Origin: Akkermansia muciniphila
Lineage (GTDB): Bacteria; Verrucomicrobiota; Verrucomicrobiia; Limisphaerales; SIBE01
Assembly: GCA_945861765.1 (NCBI GenBank)
Contig: CAMAWP010000030.1
Location: 1-33,824, forward strand
Length of the DNA: 33,824 bases
Direction of reading: 5' to 3'
This document shows positions 1,038-26,986 of this stretch, one piece after another. The position numbers and the translations under genes were made by a program. How positions within the stretch are numbered: position 1 is the first letter of the stretch; every line of letters starts with the position of its first letter. Under the pieces are notes generated by a model. The model had not been told where the DNA came from. It worked only from the letters and a program-made list of their open reading frames with translations, and did no database searches.

Positions 1038-1085
1038 GTTTGTTCGAGGCCAGTAGCGCGCTTCGCGATTTTTCGAAATTCTCTG

Positions 1086-1115
1086 TTGGCAGAAGCGTCT
1101 TTAACGGAGTAGAGT
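1086..1115 (+). promoter_or_regulatory. Possible sigma-70-like promoter for the cytochrome/DUF1501 pair
   Basis: A TTGGCA box at 1086-1091 (5 of 6 to the -35 consensus) is followed, 18 bp later, by TAGAGT at 1110-1115 (4 of 6 to the -10 consensus). It ends about 45 bp before the chosen ATG at 1160. This is a consensus match only. Verrucomicrobial promoters are poorly characterised, so confidence is low. Confidence 0.25.
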
Positions 1116-1159
1116 CTGCGAATCAGCCGTTTTGGTTTTTTAGCAACGTGATCTCTCTC

Positions 1160-6271: not shown

Positions 6272-6330
6272 TGGACTTAATCGCTCGAATGCTCATGCTC
6301 TCCCTGTTAACCCTCAACCAAAAATAACTT

Positions 6331-9838: not shown

Positions 9839-10342
9839 CTACTTCATCATCACAGCTATCACGCTCGGTGCCGAGTAAACCATCACTCCACCAACCGAGG
9901 TGTAGCGGGCAACAGCAGTGATCTTGTCTCCGGTCGGATTACCCTCGCCCCACCTGAGATCGATCTGATAGCCCGTCCCGATGGACGTCGTCATCTCGTA
10001 CCGTTTCAGGTCCTCGGCCTTCAAGCTCCAAGTGTGGCGGGGCTTGGCAGATGCTTCATCGCTCCGTGGCAATAGCCCATCGTACATGAGAAAGTCGAGC
10101 GTTCCGGTGACTATCGGAATCGGCTTGGGGTGCTTGCGATTTCCAGCGTAAATCTTGACCACAAATCCATCTGGACCAGGAACTCCATCGAAATTCACGA
10201 CGACCGGCATCGCCAGAAGATTGAGCTCGGTAATGACCGTTCCGGCCGGTTCATGGGCTGTCGTTGACTGGACCTTTTTCTTTTGCCCCGACATGCAGCC
10301 GAGCAAGAAGAACGGGAGCAGTGATAGCGTGAGAATTCGCAT
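9839..10342 (-). CDS. Small lipoprotein downstream of the secretin gene
   Basis: The encoded protein is 167 residues from the ATG at 10342. The longer frame to 10417 adds 25 residues of no clear character. The N-terminus (MRILTLSLLPFFLLGC) is a lipoprotein signal with a lipobox LLGC, Cys at residue 16, followed by a polar linker. The rest looks like a compact beta-rich domain. I do not recognise the family. It is the last gene on the strand of the T2SS cluster, 77 bp after the giant secretin stop. Secretins commonly need a small outer-membrane lipoprotein (pilotin) or an accessory lipoprotein, so such a role is possible. This is inferred from position and lipoprotein character only; it does not resemble the known GspS or AspS pilotins to me. 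Confidence 0.75.
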   Translation of the reverse strand: MRILTLSLLPFFLLGCMSGQKKKVQSTTAHEPAGTVITELNLLAMPVVVNFDGVPGPDGFVVKIYAGNRKHPKPIPIVTGTLDFLMYDGLLPRSDEASAKPRHTWSLKAEDLKRYEMTTSIGTGYQIDLRWGEGNPTGDKITAVARYTSVGGVMVYSAPSVIAVMMK

Positions 10343-10419
10343 TCGAAGTCTCAGGTCCCCTCCCCTTCCCCAAAGGAGAAGGCCCGGATGAGTGGTTCGT
10401 TCGAGAACATCGATCACAG

Positions 10420-13400
10420 TTAGGTTGAGTCGCCCTTTTTCTTCTGCTTCTCTGGTTCCACAGGAGGAGAATTGTTCCTTTGTTTTGCGTCCGGCGTTTC
10501 AAGTTTTCTATTGGGAAAGAGAGGGTCGAGGAGTTGATTGCGAAAGCCGTCGCGTTGGATTTGATCTTTGTCTTTGATGGAAGAGTGTTCCAACTGATCT
10601 TGAGTTACCTTCTTGGGATCCATGATCGTGGAATCTTCGACGGCGTTCACCAGGACTTGAGGAGTCAGGAGGATCAGCAGTTCCTTACGATCAGACACCT
10701 TCGATTTACTTCGAAAGAGCACGCCGAGATAGGGAATGTCGCCGAAGAAAGGCACCTTCTTGATCCGAGTGTCATCGGAGATGCTGATCAAGCCGCCGAT
10801 GATAATCGTCTGGCCACTTTGCACACTCACTGAAGTCGTGGCTCGGCGTTCGTTGATGATCGGCACGCGAACAGTTCCTCCTTTGGCGCTTGATCCGACA
10901 TCGACAGTGGCGCTGCTCAAGGCGCTATTGGTCGTGCTGATCTCCATCTTCACGGCGCCGTCCGCGCCAATGCGGGGAGTCACGGCGAGGTTTACACCCA
11001 CATTTTCATATCGGAAGGAGTTGATCGTATCTCCGAACTGCGTTACCCGGCTGTCGGTGATGAGCGGCACGCGCTGGCCCACGTTGATCGTGGCGGGCTT
11101 GTTATCCGAGGTCAGGATTTGCGGGCGGCTCAACACTTCCAGGCGTCCCTCGTTTTCGAGGGCGCGGAGAAGAAAATCATAGTTGCTGCCCGTAACGGCG
11201 GCCGAGAATCCTCCAAAGGTTTTCAAGTCGCTGAGTGCGCCCAGGCTCGTTCCGGTCGCGAGTCTGGCATCCTCCACAGTCTTGGTGACATTCCATTCGA
11301 TACCCAGGTCGCGGGTGGAATCGAGAGTCACTTCAGCTAATAATACCTGTATGAGCACTTGAGGCTGCGGCTTGTCCAGCTTCTCGATCAAGTCCTTGAC
11401 CTGGGCGAAATAGCGGCGGTCAGCCGAGAGGAGCAACGTGTTGCTGACTTGCTCAGCGACGATGGCCACCTCGTGCTCCAGCATGCGCTGAGCGGTGCCA
11501 ACCGCGTCCTGGCCGAGCACCTGGGTGACTCGGGTCCGTTCTTGATCAAGGAACGCGCGAACAGCCGTTTGGATCTCCCCGGCTTGCGCGTTCTTCAAAC
11601 GGTACACTTCTGATTTCCGTTCCTGCGCCGCGCTCGAGTCCAACGTCTGGATGATGTCGGAGACAAGCGCCACGTAATGCTCCGTGCCGCCCACCAACAA
11701 ACTGTTCGTCCGCGGATCGACCGTCACATGCAGGGCGTTCTGCTCATCGCTGCCAAGCACTGCCGAAGCCCCTTCGACCCCGTCTTCAGCCGTCGTCTCT
11801 TCCGGCCCGTCAGGCGCATGGGAGTTCGGCTTAATCAGTGTGTATTGAATCGATCTTTGGCTGCCGGCTGGCTGGCCCGCTGGCTGGAGCCGGAACAGGC
11901 CTGACAACAATTCCGCCATCTGCCGGGCATCCGCATTTATCAACTGGAACACCTTGATCTTAGCTTGTCGCGGCGAGCTCGAGTCCATGCGCGCAATGAT
12001 CTGCTCCAGGAGCCCGACATAGTCCGCCGGTGCCGAGATGACCAGCGCATTCATCCGTGCGTCCGGTGTAATCAGGACTCCTTCTTTCAAGGCGGACGCG
12101 ACCACGTCCTTGCCGTCTTCCGTCCGCGTGATGAATTGCAAAAGTGAAGCGCTGTTGGGATGTTGATCGGGCAATCCCGTCGGCTTCGTGTTCAGAGCCG
12201 TGTTCAAAATCGTGGAAAGCGATTCAGCTCTGGCAAAACGCAGCGGAACAATCCGGATCTCGGAAACGCGCCCGACTTGGTCTGTGTCGAGCTTCTTCAC
12301 CAGCTCCGTGATGCGTTTGATGTCGCCTTCCCCGGCCGAAAGCACGATCGCGTTCAAGCGCTCGTCAGCCGTCACAACCACTGGCGACGCAGCTCCCGTC
12401 CCCGGCGGACCTGAGCGATAAAGCCCTTGCACTGTGAGCGCGACTTGCCGGGCGTCCGCCTTGGCCAGGGGCAGCACCTGCACAGTTAAACCCTGCTGGC
12501 CTTGGTCGCTATCGAGCCGCTCGATGAGTGAGGAGACCATGGCCATATCCTCGACCGACGCACCGACAATCAACGCATTGGCCCACGCGTCCGCGACCAC
12601 TGTGATTGGCTCCAGAGGCTCACCCTTAGTCCGAGCCGGACGGTTGACGAAGAGTCTTTGCAACGTGTTCTGAAGCTTGCTCGCTGTTGTTTGTTTGAGA
12701 GGGAACACTTTGAAATTCATCCGAGCGACGGTGTCCTCGGCGTCCAATTGCTGGATAATCCGGTCGGTGACGTCGAAGCTTTCTTTGCCCCCGGTGACCA
12801 GCAAAATATTAACCCGATCATCGGGAATGACGACCACGGGAATGGAGCGTTCGGTCGCGTTGCCGCCCCCGCCGCCTCCTCCCCCACCCTCGCCGGTGCG
12901 TCTCGCCCGAAAGAACTGCTCCAACACCGTGGCGAGGCTGCTGGCTTTGGCGTGTTTCAATTGATAGAGCCGGACGTTTCCCATCTCGGCAAAACCTCTG
13001 GTATCGACTTGCTTGATCACTTCCTTGATGACGAGAAGGTTTGCCGGGCTGGCTGACACGATCAACGTATTGCTGCGCGGATCGACTGTCACCGCCATGG
13101 CTTCGCGCTGCGATTGGGACCGTGGACCTCCAGAAGAAGCCCCGGAGGCTCCTGGACGGTAGAGCCCCTGTTGCACGAGTGATCGCAGCATGTTGGCGAT
13201 GCGTTGCGCATCGGCAAACTCAAGCGTGAAGGTCTGCACGAGACCGTCCGCCGCGGTCGGTTCAACATCAATTTTCTCGAGTAATCCCTTCATGATCTCC
13301 AGGTTCTCCAGGCTGGAGGAGATGATGAGAGCGTTGTTCAAGCTGTCGGTCTCAATCGTCACTTGATCTCGAGGGGATGATGGCTGGCCAACTCCTGTTC

Positions 13401-16400
13401 GGGTTTTTAACCGAGCGGCAAAGATACCGTCAAGTGTCGTCGCCACTCTGGCGGCGTCATTATGCCGAAGTGACAGCACCGTGAGCGCCATCGACGGGTC
13501 ATCCAGCTTTTGGTCGAGCTTTTTCAACAGGTCGTCAATCATCTGATTGTCATCGACACCCGCGGCCACGAGCAGGCTGTTGCTCCTTGGATCGGAGATG
13601 ATGATCGGCTTGTTGCGCTGGACATCCGGCGATCTCGCGGCTTGGTATCGTTGATTAAAAAGATTAATCAACGACGTCGTGACGGCGCGGGCATCCGCGA
13701 ACTTCAGAGGGACGAGTCGAATTCGACCGCCCAAAGCCGTCGGAGCCCGATCCAATTCTTTAACAAGCGATTCCACCAGGTCGAAGCTGTCTTTGGATCC
13801 GGTGACCAGAAGGCTGTTGCTCCGCGGTTCGTCGATGATGAGCACGCGCATGGAATCCGCCTCCTGCTTGCTGAGCGCGCCTTTCTGGGCCACTCGAGCA
13901 TCGAGCAATCGTTGCAGCGTCGCGGCCACGACCGTAGCATCCGAATTCTCCAATGCCACAATGCGAATGTCGCGAAGATCGAACGGCAATTGCCTGTCGA
14001 GCTGGGCAAGCAGGCTGTCGATGATGGCAAACCCTTTCCCGTTCCCCGCCACGATTAATGCTCGGGTCCGTTCATCGACCGTTACGTTTGGCTTGTCTTC
14101 TGTTCGCAACTGCGCCGCGCGCGGCCCGGTGAAAATATCATTGATCACTTTCTGGACAGTGACCGGGTCGGCGTGATTAAGGGCATAGACGCGGATACTG
14201 TCCAAGCCTGAAGCTGAGGGAATGTCCAATTGGTTGATGACCGTTTCGATCAGCGGCAACATGTCGGTGCGAGCGGCGACGATGAGGAAATTGGAGGTGC
14301 TGTCCGGTTGAACTGTCAGCGCCGCCCGGGCCTTTGGTTGTTCGGCCACCTGGGGTCTTTCATCCGGCAAGCCAGCGCGAAGGCGGGTGACCTGCGTGTT
14401 CAACCCCTCGGTTCCCGGCACGGCTGGCCCTTCTGCGAACACCGATTGCAAGAGCGGAGCCAGTCGAGTGGCCGAGGCATGTTTGAGCCGGAAGAGCTTT
14501 ACCTCCGTCACAAACCGATCGAGCTTGCGATCGAGGTCGCTGATGATTTTTTGGGCGAGATCCAGCGATTCGACTTGCCCGCTAAGAATGAGTGTGTTGG
14601 AGCGCGGGTCCACTGCGACGTTCAAAGGATTAACGAGCGCCTTGCCGGCGGTGCCTTCAGGTTCTCCGCGGCCGCCTGGCCCGGTGGCGAGCCGCTGGCC
14701 TTGCGTGAAGATCGTGGTCAAGGTTTGGACGACGGTTGTGGCGTCCGCATGTTGCAGGTGAACCAGCCGGACGTTGACTCCTTCTGTTACGGGCACTGTG
14801 TCCATCATTTCCACCACCGCGGCCAACGCCTTAAGATTGTCCGAGGTGGAAGAAAGGATCAGGCGGTTGGCGCCGCCCTGCCCGCCCAACACCGTATCGG
14901 CCATCACTTTGATCGGCTTCGTCAGGTCGAGCAAAACAGTTTTGCCCTCGTCGTTCTGGATTTTGAGCCGCCGGATCTGCTCCTGCAGTTCGCGGGCGTC
15001 CGGGGTGAGCTGACCGGCGACTCCCGGTCGGAGCATATTCTGGAGCACGTTCGCAAGCTGGGGAGCGGTTGCCTTCTTAAGCGACACGACCAATACCTCG
15101 GCTTCCGCGAACGGAGAGGGTGTATCCAGCGAATGGATCATGCTGGCGATCTGGTTGAGGGCGGTGTCGCGCGCGATGACGAGCAAGCCGCGGGTGCGCG
15201 TGTCAACGATGACCGTGAGCGGCTCGCCTGGGCGAATAATATTCAGTTGCGTCACCATTTGTTGAACCAGAGGAATGATCTTTTCCGGCAGGGCGTTGGT
15301 GAGAGCCACGAGCCTATATTCGAGCTGGGAACTCACCCCGGCGACATCGATCTGTTTGATCAATAGCTCCATCAGAGTGAAATCAGTTTGTTTGGCTCGG
15401 ACGATCACGCTGCGGGTGCGTGGCTCGGCAACGACCGTGATCTTTGGCACCGGCGCGACGGGACGGACCTCGCCGGGCTTTTGTTGTTGCTGTTGCTGCT
15501 GCTGCTGTTGGAGCTGCTGCTGCTGTTGCGGAGTGAGCGGGTCAGGCTTGAACAGGTCGCTCAAAGTCCGGGCGACCATCACCGGGTCGGCTTCCTTCAA
15601 TGGAAAGATGCGAAACTCGGCGTCGCTGCTGATGTACGAAAAGGACAAGTCGGAAATGATGCGATCGATCTGGTCCAGCTCGTGGGTGGGGCCGGAGAGA
15701 ATGAGCGCATTGGCATTCTTATCGATGGCAATCACCACTTCGGGATCAGGCTGTGGCGGTGACTTCTCATCGGAGACGGCAGAAGGAGAAACGTCGGAGG
15801 CGGGCGGCTGCTTCGTCTGCGAGGGCGATGTGGGTCCCGCTGGTTTATTCGGCTTTGAGGCCGGTTGGATTTTTTCCACCATGCGGATTTGGCCTTTGGA
15901 CATTTGCGGGTAGATGTTTTGGAGCATACGCGCCATCTGATCCACCGGAACACGCGACACGGGACGAAAGCGAACCTGGAGGCTCGTGTCGGGGCTCGAT
16001 CCATCCAAACGCGCGATCAAATCCTGGATTTGCACAATGTCCGCTGTCTTCCCAATGATCGTGATGGAATTATTGAAGCTATCGGAGTCGATCACTGGTC
16101 GATCCTCTTTAGGCCGACTGGCAAATACGGCATCCAGTTTGAAGGCGACGTCGAAAGCTTTTGCGCTATTCAGCCAAACAAAATGAACGTCCCGCTCGGC
16201 TCGATCTGGCGCTTTGTCGAGTGCCTTCAGCAGTTGCTCCACCATCTTGAATTGCGATGTCGTCCCCGAGATAACGAGGCTGTTGGACCGTTCATCAACG
16301 GCCACGTTCGCTTGAGCGGCTCGGGTGCCGAGGGTGGACGTCGTCCCTCGCACGCGCCCTTGCCCTCGGGTCGCGCTTTGCAGGAGTTGCTGAATCACCG

Positions 16401-19400
16401 CCGAAACCTCCCTGGCCTTTCCATTCTCCAGTTTGTAGATATGCACGTTGATTTCGTCGTCCACGCTCTCCTGATCAAGTTCACGGATAACGTTCATCAC
16501 CTCCTGGACGGCGTCAGCGGGACCATTCAGCAGAAGGCTGTTCGGACCCACCACCGGCGTGACAGTCACGCGCTGCAGTCGCGTTTGAGGTCCCCGGCTG
16601 GCAATCGTCTTATTGACCGCCTCCGCCAGATTCTCCGCGTGCGCTTTTTTCAGATGCACCGTTTGAATGACGCTCTTGCCATCCGGCTCCTCCTTGTCGA
16701 GGGTCTGAATCAGTCTTTCCGCCAGCGTCAGTTTCTCGGGCGGGCCTTGCACAATCACCGCGTTCAGCGCAACGGCAGGAGCGACGCGAATGCCCTTCGC
16801 ATCCGATAGAGCCTGCATCCCGACCCCTGGCCGCCACTGTGTTCGACGCGGGCGCGACTGGCCGGGCTGAAGCGGCTCGTTATCTGTCAGCATCGATTGA
16901 AGGACATCCGCGATTTGGGTCGGATCACTGTTCTGAAGTTTGAACGTGCGGATTTCACTGGTGACTTGCGCGGTTTTCTTCAGGTCCTCAATCAGCTTAT
17001 CTATCTTCAGGAATTGGTCTTTGGTGCCAATCGCCATGAGAACGTTGGCGCTCGCGTCTGCCTCGAACCGCGGAGCCAAACCCGCCGAAGCGCGCCCTCC
17101 TTTTTCGGCGAACAACCGCGCCAGCGTCGGCGCCAGCTCCGCGGCGTGGCCATCGGGAACTTGATAGGTGCGGACTTCCGCTTTTCCGAGCGCTTCCTCG
17201 CCATCCAACGTCTTGATCAGTTGCTCGACCTTTTCAAGGGTCGGCGTCGTGGCATCCAGCACGAGAGTGCGATCGTCGGAGGCAGGCGTGACGACCAGTC
17301 GTTCGTTCGGGTCCTGGGTGGAGGTCTGTCGGCCAAATAATTGGGAGATCATCGTGGCAATGGATGCGGCGGAGTTGCGCTGGAGCACGATCACTCGCAG
17401 TTGCCGTAAGCTGCCCTCGGCAGTCTGCTGGAGCTGATTGACGATTTCCTCGATCGTTTTCATGTGGGATTCGCCCGCCGTGATGATGAGCCGGTTGCTC
17501 AACTCGTCTCCCATAATCAGCGCGTCGGCAAGGCCGCCTTGCGGTCGGCCTTTCATCTGGTCCTGATAAAGGCTCTTCACTTTCGCCGCCACTTCAGAAG
17601 CGACCCCGTTCTTGAGCTGGATCAGATGCATCTGGCGCGGTTCCTTGGCCAGGATCGCATCCATCTGCTCCACGATCACTGCCGCGGCTTGCAGGTCCTT
17701 CGCCTCGCCCGAGACGATCAAGACGTTGTTCTGTTTGTCGGTGCCGACACTGACTCGCGGGATATTCCGGCCAGACGGAGTAATCCGAGACAATGCAGTG
17801 GAGAGCACCAACGCGACTTGCTCTGCTTCAGCCATCTTGAGTTTGAACACACGGGTCGAGGCGCTCTGCGGGCTAACGCTGTCCAACTGCTTGATAATTC
17901 CTTCAACGACCTGAAGCTCGTTCGTTTCGCCCGAGACAATCAACCGGTTCGCCGACGCATCAGCCAATATCAGTGTATCGGGGGGAAGCGTTCCCAGCCG
18001 GCTCTTGGCTTGGTCTTGGTAAAGAGTGCGCACCGTATTGGCAAGATCGATGGCGATGGCATTCGTCAAATCGTAAACCTTCGTATCGCGCGTGTCGCTC
18101 GTCGGCTTGCCCGTGCTCAACTGATTGAGAATGGCTTCGATCTGATCGAGGTGCTCAGCCTTGCCTGTGACAATCAGCCGACCAGTGCGCGGATCCCCGA
18201 CGATCTGCGCGTCGGCTGGGTCAGCTTCGCCCTTGTCTTTCCATTGATCCTGGTAAAGCTGTCTGACCAATGGCAGCAGGCGTTGGACGTCGCTGGCATT
18301 GCCCACCTCAAACGCCCGGGTTCGGCGCGCCGGACGCTTCTCGGTCTCCAACGTCTCGATGATTTGTCGAATCGCCGTCACCTGGTCTGGGGCGCCGTAC
18401 ACCATGAGCCTCGAGCCGGAAGCGTGCGGATAAATCGTGGCTGGCTTGGTCGGTTTCCCTCTGGACTGCTCGGTGTAAATCCGGTTCACGGTCGTGAGCA
18501 ACTCCTGGGCGTTGGCATTCTTCAATTCCACGGTCTGGAGTTCGCGCGCTCCAGGATCAGACTTGGTGTCGAGGGTCGAGATGACGGTCTCCACCTGCGG
18601 AATCAGCGAGGGTGGCGCCAGCACGATCAGCCGCTTGCCCGAGGGCTCTGGCGTGATGCTGACGATGTTGGTGATGCTGCGACCGTTGCTTTGCGCCGCG
18701 AAAACTTTCATCGCCAGCGCCGCGAGCGTGTCTGGGTCGTCGGTCCGCACATCAATCACTTTCAAGCTGCGCCCTTTTTCGACCCCTTCGCGGTCCAACT
18801 TCTCAATGATCGTTTGAGCGTCTTGCAGGTCGGCGCGCGAACCGGAGACAGTAACGCTGTTGGATTCTTTGTCCGGCGACACCGAGACGCGGCGGATCGG
18901 CTGGTTGCGGGCGTCAAAGCGGAGCATCGCGTTCGACACGACCATCGCCACAGCGACGGGGTCTGCGAGGGTCAGTTTGAAAACCCGTGCTCCGCCAGCA
19001 CCTTCCGGGGCTTGATCCAACTGCTCCACCACGCCAGCCACGGTCTTCAGCTCATCCTTCGGACCCGTGACAATCAGGCGGTTCGCGGCGGCGTCGGGGA
19101 GAATCTTGATCTGGGAAACGTATTCCGGCCCGCGTTGATCCTTCGAGATTTCCGTGACGAGGGCGCTGACCATGGGCGCCACAGTATTGGCGTCGCCCTG
19201 CTTGAGCTCGATGATGCGGAGCTCGCGAGGCTGAACGTCCGACCTTGTGTCAAGCTGCTGGATGACCTGCGAGGCGGCCTCGACAGCGCCAGATTCACCA
19301 GTCAGAACCAGGCTGTTGCTCCGGGCATCGACCAGAACTTTGATCTGCCTGGACTGCGTCGTGAGGCTTTTCTCCACCAGACTCGCCAGATCCTGAGCCA

Positions 19401-21834
19401 AGCCGGCTTTGAGCCGAATGACGCGCGTTTCTTCCTTCGTGCCTTTCCGTCCTTCGGGGTCAAGCTGACGGACGACCGTCTCCACACGAGCAATCTCCTT
19501 TTCCGAGCCGCTCACCATAATACGATTGTTCTTCGTGTCGGCCAGGAGCGTGGCGGCACCGCCGGCGGGCTCGGAGACTCCCTTCAATTGCTCCTGATAG
19601 AGCTGCTGGACGAGAGCGGTCAGCTCGGCCGTATTGCGGCCAAACAATTCAATTCCTTTGGACTGGCGGCTGACGGCGGAGTAGGAGGCGCCGTCGAGTT
19701 GCTGAACCAAATTCGTAATCCGCTGAAAATCTTTGGCGGTGGCCAGAACGATGATCTGTTTGCCAGACGAGTCGGGAATAAGTTTGGGAGCGAGCTGAGG
19801 GTTGGTCTGATCCTCGCCCAGTTGCGTCATGAGCTGAGTCGTGAGGGCAATCAACTCAGAGGCGGACTTCGACCGAATCGGGATCACGCTCATCTCGCGT
19901 TTGGTCTTGTCCGGCGCGATATCAAGCGTGTTCACCACGTCCTGAACTTCCGTGAACTGCTCCTCGGTGGCGGTGACGAGAAGTCGGTTGTTCGCAGCGT
20001 CGGGCAACAGCAGCGGCTTGGCGAGAGCTTCAAACCGCCGGTCGCTCATTCGCTCCGCGACCAGGCTGTTGATGCTCGTGAGCGCGGCATCGATCCGGAG
20101 CTCTTTCAACGCAATAATCTGGAGGCGGCGCAACTGCGGTTTGCCCTTCTCGGCCTTCAGTTGTGTCACAATTTCCTCGATCCGTTTCAAGTGGTCCTGG
20201 CTTGCGGTGACGATCAGCCGCCCGCTTTCAACATCAACCATCATTTTCGCGTAAGCCGCTTGGCCGCCGAAACTGTTGGTCACCTGGCTGCGGTAGATTT
20301 GCTCGACCAGGGGAAGAATCCGTTTCGCTTCGGATACAGTCCCAACGTCGAGGAACTTCGTTTGCTGCGGCATTGAAGTCGTGGAACCGATCTCGAGTTG
20401 CGCAATAATATCGACAGCGGTCTGCACATCGCCGGGCGAACCTGTCACCACGACGCTCTGGCTGGTCGGCTCGAGCGTGACGTTGACCGCGGAGATCGTC
20501 GAGCCGTTCGGCAATCGCTTCGACAAAGCATCGGAAACGATCTTGGCCACGCTGGTGGCGTCGAGAGCACGGGGGCGAAAAACTTTGGTGACTTGAATCG
20601 TTTGCGAACGAGTGGGCTGCAAGTTCCCGCCATTCCCGTGAACAGGCCTGTCGAGTTTGTTGATCAGCAGCTCGATTTGATCGAGTTGGCCGGCGATCGG
20701 CGCGGCGACAATCAAGCGGTTTTGCTCGGGGTCCGCGATGACCCTGGCTTTGGTGGCCGCGGCAGCCGCAGTTTCCTTGGGGCCAGCCACGCCAGGGATG
20801 GCTTGGCGGATCATCTGCACCAATTCCTCGGCCTTGGTGATCTGCGGATAGTAAATCCGCACTTCGCCGGCGCCACCTTCTTTATCTTCGAATTTCGCAA
20901 CCAATTCTTCGGCCAGCCCCAGTCGATCACGCGGCCCGAATAAGACAAGGGTGCGCGACGCGTCGTCATACACCGCGGTCACGTAATCGTTCGGGTCGGC
21001 CGCGAGAGCTTCAAGCTGTTTCGTCTGAGGATTAAACTGCGTCTTCTTCGTCGCCGTGGCGGCCCCGAAAGTGCGGTTGATTAGATCGGCCACCACAGCG
21101 CCGGAAGCATGAACAAGCGTGTGGGCTTTCATTTGGCGCTCCGCCACGGCCTCGGTATCAATCGCGGTGAGCAGCGAGCGAATCCGCTGAATGTTCATCA
21201 GCCGATCGGTAATGATCAAACCTCGGCCTCGTGAAAGCGGCGCGATCGATCCGGCGGTGGAGAGCATCGAGACGACCGCTTCGCCCACTTCTTTTGTGTC
21301 CAGATTTTTAACTTCCAAAACGATCGTGACGATCTCGCCGGGCCGAACATCACCGGTGTTATCGAGTCCACGCAGGATTCTCAGCGGCATTTGGGGCAAT
21401 GTCTTAAACGGCACCAACCGCAGGTAATGGCCATCCTCCATCAGAGTCATTCCTTTCATCGACAGCATGAGGTTCAGCGTATCCAGGGCCTCCGGATAGC
21501 TGTAAGGCTTGGGATCATTGAACGTGAGCGTGCCTTGGAGATTGGTGTCGGTGACCAGCGGCTTGTTCGCCATTTGAGCAAAACGCTCCAAGACATCCGC
21601 GTAAGGAATGCCGTCGAACTGAAAGCGGATATTGCGTTGCGGAGCATTCGTAGCCGTTTCGGTGGCGCTCGCGGCGGATGGGATGGCGTTGGTCACCCGC
21701 TTGAGATCAGCCGCGGACGATGCGACGGTGCGGGTCTCCGACGCCGCTTGCGTCTTGAGGTCCTGCGCGAGGACGGAGGCTTCCGAGACGAGGGCGCAGG
21801 TCAATCCAATGAGAGTGATGCTAAATCGTGTCAT
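10420..21834 (-). CDS. gspD: Giant secretin (GspD family) with about 40 N1-type modules
   Basis: The encoded protein is 3804 residues in one uninterrupted frame. A signal peptide (residues 1 to about 24, ending VLAQ) is followed by an Ala/Thr-rich linker and an N0-type domain (about 68-143, NIRFQFDGIPYADVLERF). From about 165 to 3494 comes a tandem series of roughly 40 N1/secretin_N modules. Each has a beta strand of the type VRVFKLKxAxA, a helix, a strand pair of the type DxRSNSLLVTG and a helix ending IIxQLD. The C-terminal secretin domain (about 3495-3740) is conventional, with VLIQVLLAEVTLD, VPIINERRATTSVSVQSGQT, IIIGGLI and VPFFGDIPYLGVLFR. A charged Lys/Pro-rich tail closes the protein. 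Ordinary GspD has N0-N3 and about 600-750 residues. The secretin forms the outer-membrane channel of the T2SS. Notable insertions are a poly-Gln run, a Gly run and a Pro-rich linker. It follows the gspM-like gene after 51 bp. Confidence 0.95.
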   Translation of the reverse strand: MTRFSITLIGLTCALVSEASVLAQDLKTQAASETRTVASSAADLKRVTNAIPSAASATETATNAPQRNIRFQFDGIPYADVLERFAQMANKPLVTDTNLQGTLTFNDPKPYSYPEALDTLNLMLSMKGMTLMEDGHYLRLVPFKTLPQMPLRILRGLDNTGDVRPGEIVTIVLEVKNLDTKEVGEAVVSMLSTAGSIAPLSRGRGLIITDRLMNIQRIRSLLTAIDTEAVAERQMKAHTLVHASGAVVADLINRTFGAATATKKTQFNPQTKQLEALAADPNDYVTAVYDDASRTLVLFGPRDRLGLAEELVAKFEDKEGGAGEVRIYYPQITKAEELVQMIRQAIPGVAGPKETAAAAATKARVIADPEQNRLIVAAPIAGQLDQIELLINKLDRPVHGNGGNLQPTRSQTIQVTKVFRPRALDATSVAKIVSDALSKRLPNGSTISAVNVTLEPTSQSVVVTGSPGDVQTAVDIIAQLEIGSTTSMPQQTKFLDVGTVSEAKRILPLVEQIYRSQVTNSFGGQAAYAKMMVDVESGRLIVTASQDHLKRIEEIVTQLKAEKGKPQLRRLQIIALKELRIDAALTSINSLVAERMSDRRFEALAKPLLLPDAANNRLLVTATEEQFTEVQDVVNTLDIAPDKTKREMSVIPIRSKSASELIALTTQLMTQLGEDQTNPQLAPKLIPDSSGKQIIVLATAKDFQRITNLVQQLDGASYSAVSRQSKGIELFGRNTAELTALVQQLYQEQLKGVSEPAGGAATLLADTKNNRIMVSGSEKEIARVETVVRQLDPEGRKGTKEETRVIRLKAGLAQDLASLVEKSLTTQSRQIKVLVDARSNSLVLTGESGAVEAASQVIQQLDTRSDVQPRELRIIELKQGDANTVAPMVSALVTEISKDQRGPEYVSQIKILPDAAANRLIVTGPKDELKTVAGVVEQLDQAPEGAGGARVFKLTLADPVAVAMVVSNAMLRFDARNQPIRRVSVSPDKESNSVTVSGSRADLQDAQTIIEKLDREGVEKGRSLKVIDVRTDDPDTLAALAMKVFAAQSNGRSITNIVSITPEPSGKRLIVLAPPSLIPQVETVISTLDTKSDPGARELQTVELKNANAQELLTTVNRIYTEQSRGKPTKPATIYPHASGSRLMVYGAPDQVTAIRQIIETLETEKRPARRTRAFEVGNASDVQRLLPLVRQLYQDQWKDKGEADPADAQIVGDPRTGRLIVTGKAEHLDQIEAILNQLSTGKPTSDTRDTKVYDLTNAIAIDLANTVRTLYQDQAKSRLGTLPPDTLILADASANRLIVSGETNELQVVEGIIKQLDSVSPQSASTRVFKLKMAEAEQVALVLSTALSRITPSGRNIPRVSVGTDKQNNVLIVSGEAKDLQAAAVIVEQMDAILAKEPRQMHLIQLKNGVASEVAAKVKSLYQDQMKGRPQGGLADALIMGDELSNRLIITAGESHMKTIEEIVNQLQQTAEGSLRQLRVIVLQRNSAASIATMISQLFGRQTSTQDPNERLVVTPASDDRTLVLDATTPTLEKVEQLIKTLDGEEALGKAEVRTYQVPDGHAAELAPTLARLFAEKGGRASAGLAPRFEADASANVLMAIGTKDQFLKIDKLIEDLKKTAQVTSEIRTFKLQNSDPTQIADVLQSMLTDNEPLQPGQSRPRRTQWRPGVGMQALSDAKGIRVAPAVALNAVIVQGPPEKLTLAERLIQTLDKEEPDGKSVIQTVHLKKAHAENLAEAVNKTIASRGPQTRLQRVTVTPVVGPNSLLLNGPADAVQEVMNVIRELDQESVDDEINVHIYKLENGKAREVSAVIQQLLQSATRGQGRVRGTTSTLGTRAAQANVAVDERSNSLVISGTTSQFKMVEQLLKALDKAPDRAERDVHFVWLNSAKAFDVAFKLDAVFASRPKEDRPVIDSDSFNNSITIIGKTADIVQIQDLIARLDGSSPDTSLQVRFRPVSRVPVDQMARMLQNIYPQMSKGQIRMVEKIQPASKPNKPAGPTSPSQTKQPPASDVSPSAVSDEKSPPQPDPEVVIAIDKNANALILSGPTHELDQIDRIISDLSFSYISSDAEFRIFPLKEADPVMVARTLSDLFKPDPLTPQQQQQLQQQQQQQQQQKPGEVRPVAPVPKITVVAEPRTRSVIVRAKQTDFTLMELLIKQIDVAGVSSQLEYRLVALTNALPEKIIPLVQQMVTQLNIIRPGEPLTVIVDTRTRGLLVIARDTALNQIASMIHSLDTPSPFAEAEVLVVSLKKATAPQLANVLQNMLRPGVAGQLTPDARELQEQIRRLKIQNDEGKTVLLDLTKPIKVMADTVLGGQGGANRLILSSTSDNLKALAAVVEMMDTVPVTEGVNVRLVHLQHADATTVVQTLTTIFTQGQRLATGPGGRGEPEGTAGKALVNPLNVAVDPRSNTLILSGQVESLDLAQKIISDLDRKLDRFVTEVKLFRLKHASATRLAPLLQSVFAEGPAVPGTEGLNTQVTRLRAGLPDERPQVAEQPKARAALTVQPDSTSNFLIVAARTDMLPLIETVINQLDIPSASGLDSIRVYALNHADPVTVQKVINDIFTGPRAAQLRTEDKPNVTVDERTRALIVAGNGKGFAIIDSLLAQLDRQLPFDLRDIRIVALENSDATVVAATLQRLLDARVAQKGALSKQEADSMRVLIIDEPRSNSLLVTGSKDSFDLVESLVKELDRAPTALGGRIRLVPLKFADARAVTTSLINLFNQRYQAARSPDVQRNKPIIISDPRSNSLLVAAGVDDNQMIDDLLKKLDQKLDDPSMALTVLSLRHNDAARVATTLDGIFAARLKTRTGVGQPSSPRDQVTIETDSLNNALIISSSLENLEIMKGLLEKIDVEPTAADGLVQTFTLEFADAQRIANMLRSLVQQGLYRPGASGASSGGPRSQSQREAMAVTVDPRSNTLIVSASPANLLVIKEVIKQVDTRGFAEMGNVRLYQLKHAKASSLATVLEQFFRARRTGEGGGGGGGGGNATERSIPVVVIPDDRVNILLVTGGKESFDVTDRIIQQLDAEDTVARMNFKVFPLKQTTASKLQNTLQRLFVNRPARTKGEPLEPITVVADAWANALIVGASVEDMAMVSSLIERLDSDQGQQGLTVQVLPLAKADARQVALTVQGLYRSGPPGTGAASPVVVTADERLNAIVLSAGEGDIKRITELVKKLDTDQVGRVSEIRIVPLRFARAESLSTILNTALNTKPTGLPDQHPNSASLLQFITRTEDGKDVVASALKEGVLITPDARMNALVISAPADYVGLLEQIIARMDSSSPRQAKIKVFQLINADARQMAELLSGLFRLQPAGQPAGSQRSIQYTLIKPNSHAPDGPEETTAEDGVEGASAVLGSDEQNALHVTVDPRTNSLLVGGTEHYVALVSDIIQTLDSSAAQERKSEVYRLKNAQAGEIQTAVRAFLDQERTRVTQVLGQDAVGTAQRMLEHEVAIVAEQVSNTLLLSADRRYFAQVKDLIEKLDKPQPQVLIQVLLAEVTLDSTRDLGIEWNVTKTVEDARLATGTSLGALSDLKTFGGFSAAVTGSNYDFLLRALENEGRLEVLSRPQILTSDNKPATINVGQRVPLITDSRVTQFGDTINSFRYENVGVNLAVTPRIGADGAVKMEISTTNSALSSATVDVGSSAKGGTVRVPIINERRATTSVSVQSGQTIIIGGLISISDDTRIKKVPFFGDIPYLGVLFRSKSKVSDRKELLILLTPQVLVNAVEDSTIMDPKKVTQDQLEHSSIKDKDQIQRDGFRNQLLDPLFPNRKLETPDAKQRNNSPPVEPEKQKKKGDST
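12857..12889 (-). repeat. Glycine-codon run inside the giant secretin
   Basis: A GGN-rich tract on the coding strand encodes nine consecutive glycines in the loop of one N1 module (around residue 2985). It is a flexible surface loop by inference. Confidence 0.7.
15478..15533 (-). repeat. CAG/CAA microsatellite encoding poly-glutamine in the secretin
   Basis: The coding strand reads a run of CAA and CAG codons interrupted once by CTC, giving five Gln, one Leu, then ten or so Gln (residues about 2101-2118). It lies in the inter-strand loop of an N1 module. Such trinucleotide tracts can change length by slippage without breaking the frame. Confidence 0.85.
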
Positions 21835-21885: not shown

Positions 21886-22875
21886 TCAGTTCGAGAGCGC
21901 GGCGAGTTGTTCTGGCAATTTATCGCGCGAAAGTTTGTAGATATCCGCCAAAGTCCCACCACGCTCGACGGCCCAGTACTCGGCTTCAATTTTCACAATC
22001 ACACGGCTGAACGACTTCAACGCCTCATTGCCAGGCATCGGGAACGGACGGTAATCCACCATCACAATAGTGCCTCCGGCAAGCGTGTCGCCCGGTTTGT
22101 AACGGAAGGTTTTCTGACTGGTCAGATCTCGGATGTGGACTTCCGGCTGCCCCATCCATTCGGAGAGCGAGACAATGCGCAGGCTGACCGGTCCGGCGGG
22201 CGGATCGGATGTGTTCGCTTCGCCACCCGACGCATCCGAAGCTCGTTTGATGTAAGGCCGTAAAATATCGCGCGCCGCAATCGCATCGAAACTTCTCCGC
22301 TCGGGACCGTCGAGCGCGAACTTGGGCTGAGCGTTGGTGAGATCGACCATCGGCATCGGATCGATGACCAAGGTCAGATAACGAAATCTCACGTTCACCT
22401 GGGAAGGGACGTCGCTCGAAGAGAGGGTGAGGTTCTCCATCCGATGCAGGTAGGGAGAGTTTTGGACCAGGAAAAGCAGATTAAGGACATTGGTGAGCTT
22501 GCCTTCGCCATTCACGGTCCATCCGATTTCGATCGCGCCACGGAGCTTTCGCGGACCATTCGGCATGCGGCTGAAATCCGATTCGTGGAGACCACTGTGG
22601 AGGATCTGTTGGGTCAGCATTTCGCCGGATTTTGCGCTCGCTTGATCCACCTGATCGGAAACGGCGCGTTGCGCGAAGCGTTTAACCAGATCCTCGGCGG
22701 TGAAATAGGCGCGCCGTTCGGCTTTAATCTTTTCCAGCTTCTCGCGCAAAGCAGCGGTCTTCTTGTCGAGTTCCCGCAACGGTTTAATCACCACTGCTCT
22801 TGCGCCAAAAACCAGTGCAAAAAGCATAATCACACCGCCGACTACGAGGGCCATTGTCTTTTCGCGCTTGTTCAT
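21886..22875 (-). CDS. GspM/PilO-like assembly protein with a possible GspC/PilP-like C-terminal domain
   Basis: The encoded protein is 329 residues. A short cytoplasmic N-terminus precedes a transmembrane helix (about 9-28) and a charged coiled coil (about 33-60). A PilO/GspM-like periplasmic region (about 60-185) follows. From about 200 a second segment starts ARDILRPY. It runs through SLRIVSLSEWMGQPEVHIRD and KTFRYKPGDTLAGGTIVMVDYR, a small beta-barrel pattern resembling the HR domain of GspC and PilP, which contacts the N0 domain of the secretin. No separate gspC exists in this cluster, so a fusion would supply that link; this is inferred. It overlaps the GspL-like gene by 4 nt (ATGA), so translation is probably coupled, and it lies directly upstream of the secretin gene. 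Confidence 0.75.
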   Translation of the reverse strand: MNKREKTMALVVGGVIMLFALVFGARAVVIKPLRELDKKTAALREKLEKIKAERRAYFTAEDLVKRFAQRAVSDQVDQASAKSGEMLTQQILHSGLHESDFSRMPNGPRKLRGAIEIGWTVNGEGKLTNVLNLLFLVQNSPYLHRMENLTLSSSDVPSQVNVRFRYLTLVIDPMPMVDLTNAQPKFALDGPERRSFDAIAARDILRPYIKRASDASGGEANTSDPPAGPVSLRIVSLSEWMGQPEVHIRDLTSQKTFRYKPGDTLAGGTIVMVDYRPFPMPGNEALKSFSRVIVKIEAEYWAVERGGTLADIYKLSRDKLPEQLAALSN

Positions 22876-24647
22876 GGCCGGGCTCCTTTCCGGTTGCCTT
22901 TGCCGGGCGGGTCCGAGGAGGCATCGTCAGCCGGCCGGACAGGAGGATGAACTCCCGCGAGGTCGATCTTCATTTTTTCCGGAGCGGCCAGCTCAACGGT
23001 GGAACGAAAGTCATAACTAAATTTGTCGTTGCCTGGAACTATGGCCAACGGCTTGACATCGTATCCCGCCGCACGGAGTTGTTTGTCGAGCTTCGCCAAC
23101 ACCTCACCGCTGCGCGCCTGGACGGCGAAGCGAATCACCCCTTGGCCGCTGATGGCAAGCGAGGAGACATAGATCTCTTCGCTGCCGGGAAGAATGGCGC
23201 TTAGATAAGCGTAATGATCGAGCGTGTTGCTGCCGGCTTTTACCCATTCCTGGAGAGTTGTGGCCTGCAGCCGCATCTGGCGGAAGATAGGCCGTTTCTT
23301 CTCGGCCGCGGTCAAATCCGCTTGAACTTGGCGGTTGATCTGGACGCGCTGGTTCATGAGTCGCGAGCGCACGCCGAGCACACCGAACAACATTACGGCA
23401 ACCGCGGCAGCAGCGGCGATGATCCGGATACGCCGCATGTTTCTCTGCACTGCCGGGCGCTTCGGGTTCAGAAAATCGAAGGAAAGACCTTGCGGATCAC
23501 TTACTCCCAGGGCCAGACCAAGCGCCGAGATCGAGCCCGACGCATCTCCGCGCGAAACCTCCGGAAGACCGAGCGCGCTCGTTGGATCCAAAAGGTTGCA
23601 TGGAATGTTCAGCCGATTCTTGAGCGCCTCGACAACGGCAAGCTCTTGCCCAGTAGCCCCAGCCACGAACAGCTTCGACACTGGAAGGTGAGGTTCAATC
23701 CCCCCGTAACTGTGCAGGCTGCGGACGACTTCGATGGTGATCGTTTCAACGAAGGAGGCGGGCCCGACCATGGCGGGTGCTTCAGTTGGTGGAGGATTCA
23801 TCCTCCCCGCGTCCGGCAGTGGTGGCGCGGGAGACGTGGGAACGGGCTGTTCAGGCTCGGCCATCAGCTTGACCGACACGCCGCGGCTGAAGAGCAAAGT
23901 CTGCTTTGCTATGACATCGATGCCCACCTCATCGAGCCTCAGCGAAACCAGAGCCACCGCCTCGTCACCAGGGGCCACGCGGCAAGCTTCCACGCAGCGG
24001 GCGTGCGCGTCGGACGGCCAGCCTAACGCCACTAAGTTCAGTCCCGCGGCATCCGCGGTTTGCTGGAACGAACGCACGACGTCGCGCCTCACTGCCGCGG
24101 CCAGCACCTCGAGTTTTGGGAGCGCTGCGGCAGGGTCGGCCTTGTTCTCAGCGGATTGCGCGTAGGTTGGGTCGTTAGGTTCCAGCCGCGGAGGCGTGCT
24201 GACCTGGCGGCGGACTTTGAAGTCAATGACGGCATCCTCCAAGCGAATGGGAAGATCCTTTCCAATCTGGAAATGAACCATCGAGGCGAGCTCGCTGATG
24301 TCCTCGGTCGCGGGCACGGATAAGGTCCGGATCACGACCGACGCACGCGGCACACCCATGACGATCCCGGCGGGTTGGATGCCCAATCGGTCCAAAGCAT
24401 CCGCGATTGCCTTTCCTAGCGCTGCCGGATCCGAGCAATCGGTTCCGTTCGGAAAATCCAGGCGCTCCGTGGCGAGACGCGTGACGGCGCCACGGTTTCC
24501 GCGCGGCGCGGTTTGGACCACGCGCAAGACCTGCCCGTCCACATCAATCCCCGTGATAGCCCCTTGGTTGCCGAGACGAAGCTTTTTGCGGATCAACAGG
24601 CGGAGATCCTTCCAGGGAAAAAGCTTTGTTTGCGGACTGTCAACCAT
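22872..24647 (-). CDS. GspL-type protein: PilM-like actin fold fused to a PilN-like domain
   Basis: The encoded protein is 591 residues. The N-terminal part (to about 380) is a PilM/GspL actin-like ATPase fold. It has a GIDVDGQVLRVVQ phosphate-binding-type motif (about 33-45), a VIMGVPRASVVIRTLSVP strand-turn region, and later VSKLFVAGATGQELAVVEALKNR. A proline-rich linker lies at about 280-300. A single transmembrane helix (about 407-428) is followed by a PilN-like coiled coil and a periplasmic ferredoxin-like domain (LKKLD..., AISGQGVIRFAVQARSG). This is the cytoplasmic-to-periplasmic connector that recruits the GspE ATPase to the inner-membrane platform. It overlaps the gspM-like gene by 4 nt and follows gspK after 3 nt, so it is within one operon. 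Confidence 0.85.
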   Translation of the reverse strand: MVDSPQTKLFPWKDLRLLIRKKLRLGNQGAITGIDVDGQVLRVVQTAPRGNRGAVTRLATERLDFPNGTDCSDPAALGKAIADALDRLGIQPAGIVMGVPRASVVIRTLSVPATEDISELASMVHFQIGKDLPIRLEDAVIDFKVRRQVSTPPRLEPNDPTYAQSAENKADPAAALPKLEVLAAAVRRDVVRSFQQTADAAGLNLVALGWPSDAHARCVEACRVAPGDEAVALVSLRLDEVGIDVIAKQTLLFSRGVSVKLMAEPEQPVPTSPAPPLPDAGRMNPPPTEAPAMVGPASFVETITIEVVRSLHSYGGIEPHLPVSKLFVAGATGQELAVVEALKNRLNIPCNLLDPTSALGLPEVSRGDASGSISALGLALGVSDPQGLSFDFLNPKRPAVQRNMRRIRIIAAAAAVAVMLFGVLGVRSRLMNQRVQINRQVQADLTAAEKKRPIFRQMRLQATTLQEWVKAGSNTLDHYAYLSAILPGSEEIYVSSLAISGQGVIRFAVQARSGEVLAKLDKQLRAAGYDVKPLAIVPGNDKFSYDFRSTVELAAPEKMKIDLAGVHPPVRPADDASSDPPGKGNRKGARP

Positions 24648-24650
24648 AGG

Positions 24651-26189
24651 TCAGTTATTGTGAGCAGCAGCGCTGGCGTAGTCCAGGCTTACAAGTCTGG
24701 TGCGCTCCCGGATTCCAGGTAAATGACTCCTGCTTCGAAGCCTTGCAGTTCGCGCAGTCGGCTCCAGAGAAGCGATCGTTCTGTCATCGGCAACGGAGTC
24801 AATCTTTAAGGGCAAGCCCAGCCGCGTTATATCCCGAAGATACGCAATCGTCGGCTTGGGCGCGGCTAGATCAATAATCGCCTCCAGCACTCGAAAGCGT
24901 CCGGAAGGAATCCCATAGCCAATCACCTGGAGATGAAATTGAAAGCTGCGCGCGGTGAGATGCGGCGCAACCTTTTTGAAGAGGTCGGCGTTCACCAAAG
25001 CTTCTTGATACAGCCACGCAGGCGTCCGTCGCTGTTCCGGGCTCAAGCCACCTCTCGCCGCTACGATGGATTCAGCAAGAGCTTCATCGATCTCGGGGAT
25101 CGTCTGGAGCACGCGCGCGGAGGCGGTGTTGATGTTGATGAGTCCGGGCAATCGGCGTTCCGCCGTTGTCGTCAATCGATCCAGCACGTCGGGGAGTTCT
25201 GTTTTCCCAACTCCAGATGCCAGCTCAACTTCCGCGCCGTTTTCGTCCTTGAACTTTCCTTTTGCTTCGAGCAGATCAGCAGGATGAGCGACAGCGGTTT
25301 TGTTACGTCGGAGCGCTGCGATGTATTGGACTAGCGCGGGTGGAAAGCCGGAGTCGGGAAGCGTGGCCTTTGGGTCAACCAGTTGAATTCGAGCAACGCG
25401 GTTGATGTCTTCGTTCAAATCGTACGACGAAATTGTGAGATACTGGCGAAGCCCGAAGTCTAGCTTTCCATCTTTGTTATCAGGAGGAAATCGCTCGTCT
25501 CCATCATTTTCACCCGGGTCGAGCCGGAAGTTGAGATTTGAATCCTCGCCGTAAAGCAGAGATGGAGTAAACCCCCGCACAAGGAGCAATTCATCAAGCG
25601 TCGATAGCGATCTATTGAGAACTCCATAAGGACGGGACAGCGTGTCGTAATACTCCTGCTCAGCGCCTTCGGGGCGGGGCGTGCTGTCAGCATCCAGGAA
25701 ATCGAGCAACCCCTGGACGAGGTAGGGCGTCATTTTAGGCAGCTTGGTAAAATTCGTCTCGGTCGCTGTATTGAGGTTGAGCTTGCTTGACTCATCGGTG
25801 AGCCCGAACTGCATCTCCTCTTGATCTGGTTCGCCCATGGCATAGACCGAATAGTACCACTGGTCAGAGCCGTCATCGACCACGAGGCGGCCTCGAAACG
25901 CTTCCGAGTTATCTTTCCAGTCGAGTCCTCCAGGAACCGTTTGTCCCGCAACCCGCATCGCTTCATAGATCCCGCTCATGGCCGCGGCCCAGGCTTGCTC
26001 GGAACCAGTCCCGGCCGCGGTGGCAGTCTCTTCGGCTCGCACATGAAACATGAGGCTGAGGACCACCATGGACGCCAGCATAATCACAACTAGAACAGCA
26101 ACGAGAACGAAGCCGTGGCGAGGCGCGCGAGCACTCCTGGATGCCGGAGCGGCGTAACTGGACCTGCTGTCAGAGCCATTTTTGGTCAT
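24651..26189 (-). CDS. gspK: General secretion pathway protein K, minor pseudopilin
   Basis: The encoded protein is 512 residues. A long basic leader (to Gly26) precedes the hydrophobic helix FVLVAVLVVIMLASMVVLSL. There is no Glu at position 5, a known peculiarity of GspK among pseudopilins. The large globular part contains the GspK signature DESSKLNLNTAT and a helix-hairpin-helix-like segment (LININTASARVLQTIPEID, about 348-366), as in known GspK proteins. It also has an acidic stretch DSNLNFRLDPGENDGDE that could bind calcium. GspK sits at the tip of the pseudopilus with GspI and GspJ. The start codon overlaps the end of gspJ by 4 nt (ATGA-type junction). Confidence 0.92.
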   Translation of the reverse strand: MTKNGSDSRSSYAAPASRSARAPRHGFVLVAVLVVIMLASMVVLSLMFHVRAEETATAAGTGSEQAWAAAMSGIYEAMRVAGQTVPGGLDWKDNSEAFRGRLVVDDGSDQWYYSVYAMGEPDQEEMQFGLTDESSKLNLNTATETNFTKLPKMTPYLVQGLLDFLDADSTPRPEGAEQEYYDTLSRPYGVLNRSLSTLDELLLVRGFTPSLLYGEDSNLNFRLDPGENDGDERFPPDNKDGKLDFGLRQYLTISSYDLNEDINRVARIQLVDPKATLPDSGFPPALVQYIAALRRNKTAVAHPADLLEAKGKFKDENGAEVELASGVGKTELPDVLDRLTTTAERRLPGLININTASARVLQTIPEIDEALAESIVAARGGLSPEQRRTPAWLYQEALVNADLFKKVAPHLTARSFQFHLQVIGYGIPSGRFRVLEAIIDLAAPKPTIAYLRDITRLGLPLKIDSVADDRTIASLEPTARTARLRSRSHLPGIRERTRLVSLDYASAAAHNN

Positions 26190-26986
26190 GGAGCTACCTC
26201 AGTGGTAGAAGACCCTTTTGCTGAAAGATCCGAAGACAAAGCGCCGCTTTCGTCCAACCCACCGGCTGGCAAATAAATTATCCGACGAAACATTCCGGTG
26301 GGATATTCCGACGGCTCGGGCTCTTCCGACGCGGCTTCGGCTCCGAGACTTACCTCAACTCCTGTGGGCAACGCAGGCAGATTCCATGTCTCCTGCCAGG
26401 TGCTCCCATCCCAAAATCGAAACCGCGCGAATCGAATGCCTTCAAACTGAACCCCTTCGTTCCCGACTGGCGAAGCGGGTTTGGAGTCTTCCTCGACATC
26501 GATGGAACCCTTTGTGCCGATGACTCGCTGGGGTTCGACGAGCGGCTCCTCCGACCGGATCAGGCCGGTGATGTTCGTTCCGGTCGATGAGTTCAAACGA
26601 TAGCTCACCCGCTTCAAATCTGTCTCGGCCGAGACGGCTCTCCCGAAGGCTCCACCGCTCCACGCCGACTGCGAGGGGATATCTGTTTTGACGAACTGAA
26701 TGAAGTTCGACCCGCCGGTGAGTGGCTTCTGTAACAACGCGACCCGAGAGGCTGTTCTCAGCTCAGCCGTAATCCTGTCCATTAACAAGCGCACCGTGGA
26801 AATACGCTCGGTCTCCTCGATCAGTTGAGCCCGCAGAGTTGCTGCCTGCTGATAGAAGACCAGCGCGACCACTAAAAGCCCAATGGCAATCAAGATGGCC
26901 AGCACCACTTCTATCAAAGTAAAGCCCGCCGATCGAAGACGAGTCCGGCTCCTTATCGAAACGGCCATGTCGATGACGCAGTCCAT
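26186..26986 (-). CDS. gspJ: General secretion pathway protein J, minor pseudopilin
   Basis: The encoded protein is 266 residues. A leader ending SAG precedes FTLIEVVLAILIAIGLLVVAL (Glu5 present) and QQAATLRAQLIEETERISTVRLLMDRITAELR, the GspJ-type amphipathic helix. The C-terminal part is beta-rich and contains FEGIRFARFRFWDGSTWQETW, typical of GspJ. An internal ATG at residue 7 is an alternative start and would give a leader of more usual length. It is placed between gspI (22 nt upstream) and gspK (4-nt overlap), the canonical order. Confidence 0.88.
   Translation of the reverse strand: MDCVIDMAVSIRSRTRLRSAGFTLIEVVLAILIAIGLLVVALVFYQQAATLRAQLIEETERISTVRLLMDRITAELRTASRVALLQKPLTGGSNFIQFVKTDIPSQSAWSGGAFGRAVSAETDLKRVSYRLNSSTGTNITGLIRSEEPLVEPQRVIGTKGSIDVEEDSKPASPVGNEGVQFEGIRFARFRFWDGSTWQETWNLPALPTGVEVSLGAEAASEEPEPSEYPTGMFRRIIYLPAGGLDESGALSSDLSAKGSSTTEVAP

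Follow-up and report, generated by a model that had tools for sequence, protein, structure and literature searches.

The window considered here (the whole stretch of DNA that was analyzed, 33,824 nucleotides of contig CAMAWP010000030.1) contains one very large minus-strand open reading frame, which begins with ATG, has no internal stop codons, and encodes a secretin of 3804 residues (Table 1). The original prediction, made from the letters of this DNA alone, had described an uninterrupted frame with a signal peptide, an N0-like domain, about 40 tandem N1-type modules and an ordinary barrel, and all of these elements were recovered: the frame is intact, the signal peptide was recognized by eye, N0 was found with a profile of the N0-N1 region, and the barrel was found with PF00263. 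Pfam reported 37 Secretin_N stretches, a single Secretin barrel (E values of about 4.5e-50 to 4e-48), and a subthreshold match to N0 (1.4e-4). A custom module profile resolved 39 abutting modules, and an extra N1-like module seen by eye at about residues 160 to 227 (within the N0-N1 profile) brings the total to about 40; the contrary outcome, that profiles would match only a few N1 modules, is thus refuted. The same module profile gave no matches in 20 residue-shuffled copies of the protein or in its reversed sequence. When the N0-N1 region was represented by a profile of 26 orthologs (mean column identity, 73%), it matched the N0-N1 domains of GspD and PilQ in the PDB, with E values of 1.6e-8 to 3e-8. 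The protein also scored 1236 bits against the NCBIfam gspD model (cut-off, 351 bits), a score inflated by the repeats. Linkers between modules are mostly absent or short, long inserts are few, and Pfam found no domain other than Secretin_N in the array except for KH-like cross-matches. The computed mass of the mature protein is 409 kDa, such that a 15-mer would amount to 6.1 MDa. GC3 lies between 0.65 and 0.74 throughout the gene, and the window contains no Ns. An antisense open frame of 970 codons lies opposite the secretin (positions 17464 to 20376, plus strand) and is probably a by-product of codon bias.

The giant secretin is the last core gene of an operon with the order E-F-G-H-I-J-K-L-M-D-lipoprotein. 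Platform and pseudopilin genes beside D were assigned by Pfam (E, F, G, H, J and K), by PilM_2 (L), or by position (I and M). A pilMNOPQ context is absent, and the PilM-like gene instead occupies the GspL position in a GspE-to-GspM-like operon; no AMIN domains were found among the Pfam matches of the giant secretin, and no type III secretion genes were found among the window proteins scanned. We have very little doubt that the giant protein serves a type II secretion system (T2SS) as its secretin. No separate gspC was seen in the operon. In ordinary systems, the HR domain of GspC binds N0. We considered whether an HR domain might be fused to the GspM-position protein, in which motifs such as DILRPY, VSLSEWxGxPEVHVRD and KPGDxLAGG can be picked out by eye; Pfam, a PDB profile search, and hhalign comparisons with GspC and GspM of E. 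coli did not bear this out. The GspM-position protein has no Pfam or PDB family match, and its conserved C-terminal domain could serve as a substitute for GspC. The lipoprotein encoded after D is a candidate outer membrane partner, and it matched no known pilotin among structures or NCBIfam models.

Table 1. Features of the secretion operon and of the giant secretin (window coordinates)
Feature	Position	Strand	Basis
GspE-type assembly ATPase (T2SSE + MshEN), first gene of operon	30342..32012	-	Pfam T2SSE 3e-135
GspF inner membrane platform protein	29124..30332	-	Pfam T2SSF 5e-56
GspG major pseudopilin	28363..28884	-	Pfam T2SSG 4e-22 + N_methyl
GspH minor pseudopilin	27651..28388	-	Pfam GspH 4e-6
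Probable GspI minor pseudopilin, GTVLLEVLVALALF segment by eye	27009..27611	-	Position, kept in orthologs; no Pfam match
GspJ minor pseudopilin	26186..26986	-	Pfam T2SSJ 1e-5, slightly below curated cut-off; conserved in orthologs
GspK minor pseudopilin	24651..26189	-	Pfam T2SSK_1st 1e-11
GspL/PilM-like platform protein	22872..24647	-	Pfam PilM_2 1e-13; NCBIfam pilM 1e-19 (below cut-off)
GspM-position protein	21886..22875	-	Position; one N-terminal membrane segment, conserved C-terminal domain
Giant GspD-type secretin, 3804 aa	10420..21834	-	ORF, Pfam, NCBIfam
Signal peptide, residues 1-24, MTRFSITLIGLTCALVSEASVLAQ	21763..21834	-	By eye
N0 and first N1-type module, residues 65-232	21139..21642	-	26-ortholog profile against PDB
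39 abutting N-domain modules, residues 228-3490	11365..21153	-	Module profile; beta-alpha-beta-beta-alpha in models
Module 14/15 junction (relatives mostly with extra four-module blocks, window copy without)	17860..17890	-	Ortholog module comparison
Secretin outer membrane barrel	10651..11163	-	PF00263
Conserved lipoprotein, candidate outer membrane partner	9839..10417	-	Directly after secretin; invariant lipobox Cys

The operon adjoins a plus-strand stretch (1040 to 7800) that encodes a 1743-residue PSCyt1/WD40/PSCyt2/PSD1 fusion followed by a DUF1501 protein, a cytochrome-like pair common in PVC bacteria. On the other side, a DUF1559 pseudopilin-like protein (32301 to 33218, plus strand) is encoded divergently from gspE; it might be a filament subunit or be unrelated.

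Distribution and descent of the giant secretins

The last 351 residues of the giant were used to search 146 genomes of the order (Limisphaerales type). Orthologs were found in 43 of them, at 52 to 100% identity and E values of 1e-98 or better, and another giant was seen in G005, a genome of the same family. Intact ortholog frames run from 2646 to 5155 residues (shorter ones mostly stop at contig ends), whereas the next-best matches in the order reach at most 46% identity in frames of up to about 1300 residues. Following the survey of secretin lengths in Verrucomicrobiota that the original prediction had proposed, no further giant was seen in about 380 other Verrucomicrobiota genomes, nearly all from outside the order, among the up to five candidates scored per genome. 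By the module profile, the orthologs have 25 to 55 modules (24 to 55 over all counts), 42 and 46 being the commonest numbers when counting starts from module 1 of the window. Reciprocal best modules are nearly perfectly collinear, their order being kept over 45 to 80% identity; modules 1 and 2 and most of modules 20 to 39 are retained in nearly all orthologs, while a stretch of modules 3 to 15 is absent from the forms with 24 to 30 modules. Several records that carry giants (L050, L051, L052 and L061) are titled Klebsiella pneumoniae, Akkermansia muciniphila or Proteobacteria, titles which look wrong for these metagenome bins.

The operon arrangement is kept in the orthologs, and the lipoprotein gene, with its invariant lipobox cysteine, follows D in nearly all of them. 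The GspM-position protein likewise has orthologs in 43 of the 146 genomes, 40 of which are among the 43 that carry the giant secretin (Fisher P of 1e-28); the pairing is broken in six genomes, most of them incomplete, and in G045 and G104 the D genes reach contig ends. No operon with a complete short D was seen among the ortholog genomes of the order. Judged from this co-occurrence, giant D and operon are inherited together. One might suppose that the chain is cut after export and that array and barrel then act separately, perhaps with the array as the building block of a surface or matrix layer, and giant bacterial surface proteins are indeed often processed. Nevertheless, strong conservation extends over both the C-terminal modules and the barrel, which are joined in all complete orthologs, and we regard such a division of labor as very improbable.

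The genome from which the window comes also encodes seven other secretins, all of ordinary size (frames of 396 to 1126 residues), as well as many T2SSE ATPases. A second conserved secretin of about 390 to 510 residues (L001 and frames of about 400 residues in most genomes of the order), with at most one N module, is widespread there, so that the opposite extreme of secretin architecture is found in the same cells.

Giants also occur in Planctomycetota. A Secretin_N search found them in 2 of 59 genomes, and a search of 343 genomes with the barrel of one of these (L116) found nine, with frames of 3109 to 5073 residues, the next matches being below 1500 residues. L116, L117 and L119 to L124 have N0, 30 to 49 modules, and a barrel. 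Upstream of L116 lie F, G, more pseudopilins, K, and genes in the L and M positions, and L116 to L118 share an operon core of F-G-..-K-L-M-D-lipoprotein; in the upstream stretch that was read for the Planctomycetota giants, no ATPase E was found. In hhalign comparisons with the Verrucomicrobiota profiles, the M-position gene of L116 gave an E value of 7e-8 and the lipoprotein after the giant gave 4e-7. The Planctomycetota giants are about 25% identical to that of the window over the C-terminal half, the last 14 or so modules are in register between the two groups, and, in the reverse direction, the best match of the L116 barrel in 378 Verrucomicrobiota genomes is the giant of the window. Among 37 barrels placed in a tree, the 18 giants all fall on one side of a branch with support of 95/93, with limited sampling of ordinary barrels, and ordinary relatives have zero to four modules by the same module profile. 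These comparisons are most simply read as a single origin of the long array, which was already long when the two giant groups separated and has since been retained. One Planctomycetota genome (G635) carries a copy of the Verrucomicrobiota type (L123), with 27 modules collinear with those of the window; this copy was probably transferred between phyla, the alternative being a mis-binned contig. No giants were found in 35 Omnitrophota or 189 Myxococcota genomes.

Selection on the modules and growth of the array

A frame of this size invites the suspicion that it is an artifact of annotation or assembly, produced by fused genes or by repeats that were collapsed or expanded, and most of the carriers are in fact metagenome assemblies. 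However, the module copies are too divergent for misassembly, pairs within the giant secretin having a mean identity of 25.5% and a maximum of 43%; third-position identity is low in most of the block copies of relatives; and orthologs of similar size occur in dozens of independent assemblies, one of the Planctomycetota giants (G617) sitting in a single contig of 3.62 Mb. Nor does the window copy show recent tandem duplication, as no pair of blocks exceeded the cut-off. We therefore consider such an artifact, which the original prediction had named as one possible refutation, to be excluded for practical purposes, with a residual probability that is close to negligible.

Comparison with G004, a member of the same genus whose protein is 77% identical, showed that synonymous sites are saturated and that dN/dS over the array is about 0.07. 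pN ranges from 0.05 to 0.22 per module and is 0.10 for the barrel, which is therefore not special in this respect. Each module is, on this evidence, individually maintained by purifying selection.

Similar module pairs within proteins are mostly four modules apart (92 of 144), with 11 pairs eight apart and 15 two apart. The extra modules of the orthologs sit between window modules 13/14 and 15 and mostly come as four-module blocks, and the array grows mainly via such blocks at one site. The four-apart copies are 46 to 72% identical, and, given their mostly low third-position identity, most of these duplications are old. Two-module block repeats were also observed, in modules 28 to 35 of L010 and in L037 to L039; those of L038 and L039 are up to 89% identical, i.e., recent.

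These patterns bear on the possibility that the modules are a scaffold, each binding its own partner (substrates, peptidoglycan or envelope proteins), and that the protein is a hub instead of an extended pipe. Such a role would sit well with the fact that the module at a given position stays recognizable from one species to the next and that the modules are strongly unlike one another. On the other hand, an array that grows by copying four modules at a time is better explained by a structural repeat than by distinct ligands, and the scarcity of long inserts and of domains other than Secretin_N also speaks against it; we think this explanation rather improbable.

A proposed long tube or a possible tether

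Structure models were consistent with a secretin N-domain array. In a three-module model (pLDDT, 74; mostly 75 to 87 within modules), the modules matched the N domains of GspD, ExeD, EpsD and XcpQ. A model of residues 2694 to 3745, built from 23 sequences, has low overall confidence (pLDDT, 60; pTM, 0.38) yet shows, in successive modules, the beta-alpha-beta-beta-alpha order of ring-forming N domains; the PDB structures closest to it are T2SS secretins. TM-scores over several modules were low, since the model does not fix how the modules are positioned relative to one another. Together with the domain and profile matches, these folds bear out the view that the protein is a secretin and the best candidate at this locus for an undescribed secretion architecture.

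How long might such an array be if its modules stacked as rings? The f1 pIV secretin, with two N domains, measures 220 Å and fits the 210-Å periplasm of E. coli (PMC8563730), and Thermus thermophilus PilQ, with six stacked rings, reaches 350 Å, which takes it across most of a wide periplasm (PMC5745081). These lengths imply about 25 to 33 Å per added ring, from which N0 and 40 modules would extrapolate to a putative tube of about 41 rings and some 120 to 150 nm, compared with about 35 nm for the six-ring PilQ. A channel of that size would exceed the thickness of a normal cell envelope several times over.

We propose that the C-terminal barrel would sit in the outer membrane and that N0 would face the inner membrane platform (F, L, M and the ATPase E), the arrangement found in ordinary systems. 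In between, the two or three N-domain rings normally present would be multiplied to about 40 and stacked into a long periplasmic tube, of about 6.1 MDa if 15-meric, through which a pseudopilus of GspG-H-I-J-K would push substrates; four-module block changes at one site would make its length tunable while both ends stayed fixed. Such a tube would probably bridge a locally enlarged periplasm of PVC bacteria. Position-specific conservation, short linkers, the retention of both anchors, blockwise growth, and the precedent of PilQ all argue for stacking, and we would give the stacked tube about an even chance. Our judgment is just as finely balanced for the reading as a whole, namely, a T2SS GspD whose roughly 40 N-domain modules form a long stacked tube, probably across a locally enlarged periplasm. 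A more specific version, in which about 41 stacked 12- to 15-fold rings self-assemble into a tube of at least 100 nm that crosses such a periplasm, with four-ring blocks setting its length genetically as a lineage-fixed ruler of envelope depth, is offered tentatively, at somewhat short of even. The original prediction had rightly seen an extraordinary array between ordinary ends; it overlooked the T2SS operon, the old family of single origin spanning two phyla, and growth by four modules at a time.

PVC bacteria can have a greatly enlarged periplasm (PMC5394234), and strain Ellin514, of verrucomicrobial subdivision 3, has a compartmentalized plan (PMC2647929). Counting against the tube are the internal sheets of Gemmata, which are just about 20 nm wide (PMC3660258). 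The patchiness of the giant (43 of the order's 146 genomes and 9 of 343 in Planctomycetota) also counts against it, as the cell plan of PVC bacteria is considered widespread. That no separate gspC was seen in the operon, and the low overall confidence of the long model, weigh on the same side. Furthermore, with seven ordinary-length secretins in the same genome, the periplasm cannot reach a width of 100 nm throughout, and a uniformly expanded periplasm alone is thus a weak explanation of the array. This objection would not apply to a tube used at a special site (a pole or an invagination, for example), nor to a tether stacked along part of its length. We also considered the crateriform structures of planctomycetes as the visible machine and do not favor this, given that they are located where membranes touch (PMC5394234) and that giants are rare in Planctomycetota.

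The ordinary secretins of the same cell also lend weight to the main alternative, in which the T2SS secretin forms rings only next to the barrel, while the remaining modules, strung like beads and flexible or folded back, fit within a normal periplasm of about 25 nm and act as a tether or fishing line toward a distant or mobile inner membrane platform. Known secretin N domains are often disordered (PMC8563730), array length varies about twofold (24 to 55 modules), as that of a tether could, and, whereas almost every ortholog retains the C-terminal half, some lack entire stretches of the N-terminal half. However, a flexible string is harder to reconcile with linkers that are mostly short or absent, with purifying selection on every module about as strong as that on the barrel, and with a module order kept across divergent orthologs. 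We consider the tether unlikely, albeit the most serious competitor of the stacked tube.

Comparison with known secretins

Among secretins, a much-studied class of bacterial export channels, known members have one to about six N-domain rings, and a conserved family with 24 to 55 modules exceeds this range by almost an order of magnitude. We found no description of giant or many-domain secretins in the open-access literature, and a survey of huge proteins (PMC11573180) mentions no secretin. The family raises the question of how far apart the membranes are at these machines and whether a secretion tube can act as a ruler or pillar that sets this distance. It also offers a molecular marker for a trans-periplasmic structure in PVC bacteria, whose envelope has long been debated, a structure that should be visible by tomography if it exists. 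A modular repeat protein of this kind may, in addition, serve for building nanotubes of set length.

GspD secretins are 12- to 15-mer channels through which folded proteins are secreted. The giant resembles GspD (TIGR02517; PDB 5zdh, 6i1x, 5wq7 and 6hcg) in having a signal peptide, N0, N1-type modules and a barrel, and differs from it in having about 40 modules instead of N1 to N3 and 3804 residues instead of about 650. The order E-F-G-H-I-J-K-L-M matches the gsp operon of E. coli K-12, but D comes last in the operon of the giant and does not lie between C and E, and a separate gspC was not found. Thermus thermophilus PilQ shares the beta-alpha-beta-beta-alpha domains and, as we suppose for the giant, has added N rings that span a wide periplasm (PMC5745081); it has six rings and 757 residues and serves a type IV pilus and DNA uptake, compared with the approximately 41 putative rings and 3804 residues of the giant. 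Myxococcus PilQ (901 residues; PDB 3jc8), the longest secretin among the PDB matches listed, and other PilQ proteins share the N0-N1 profile match and the barrel, whereas the giant is without a pil operon context. Among the closest nongiant barrels are those of ordinary Omnitrophota and Planctomycetota secretins (L125 to L132; 632 to 910 residues; 38 to 44% identity), which have one to three modules by the same profile and fall outside the giant clade. The giant is thus a member of the GspD family by its domains and context and lies outside the known range of that family by its architecture.
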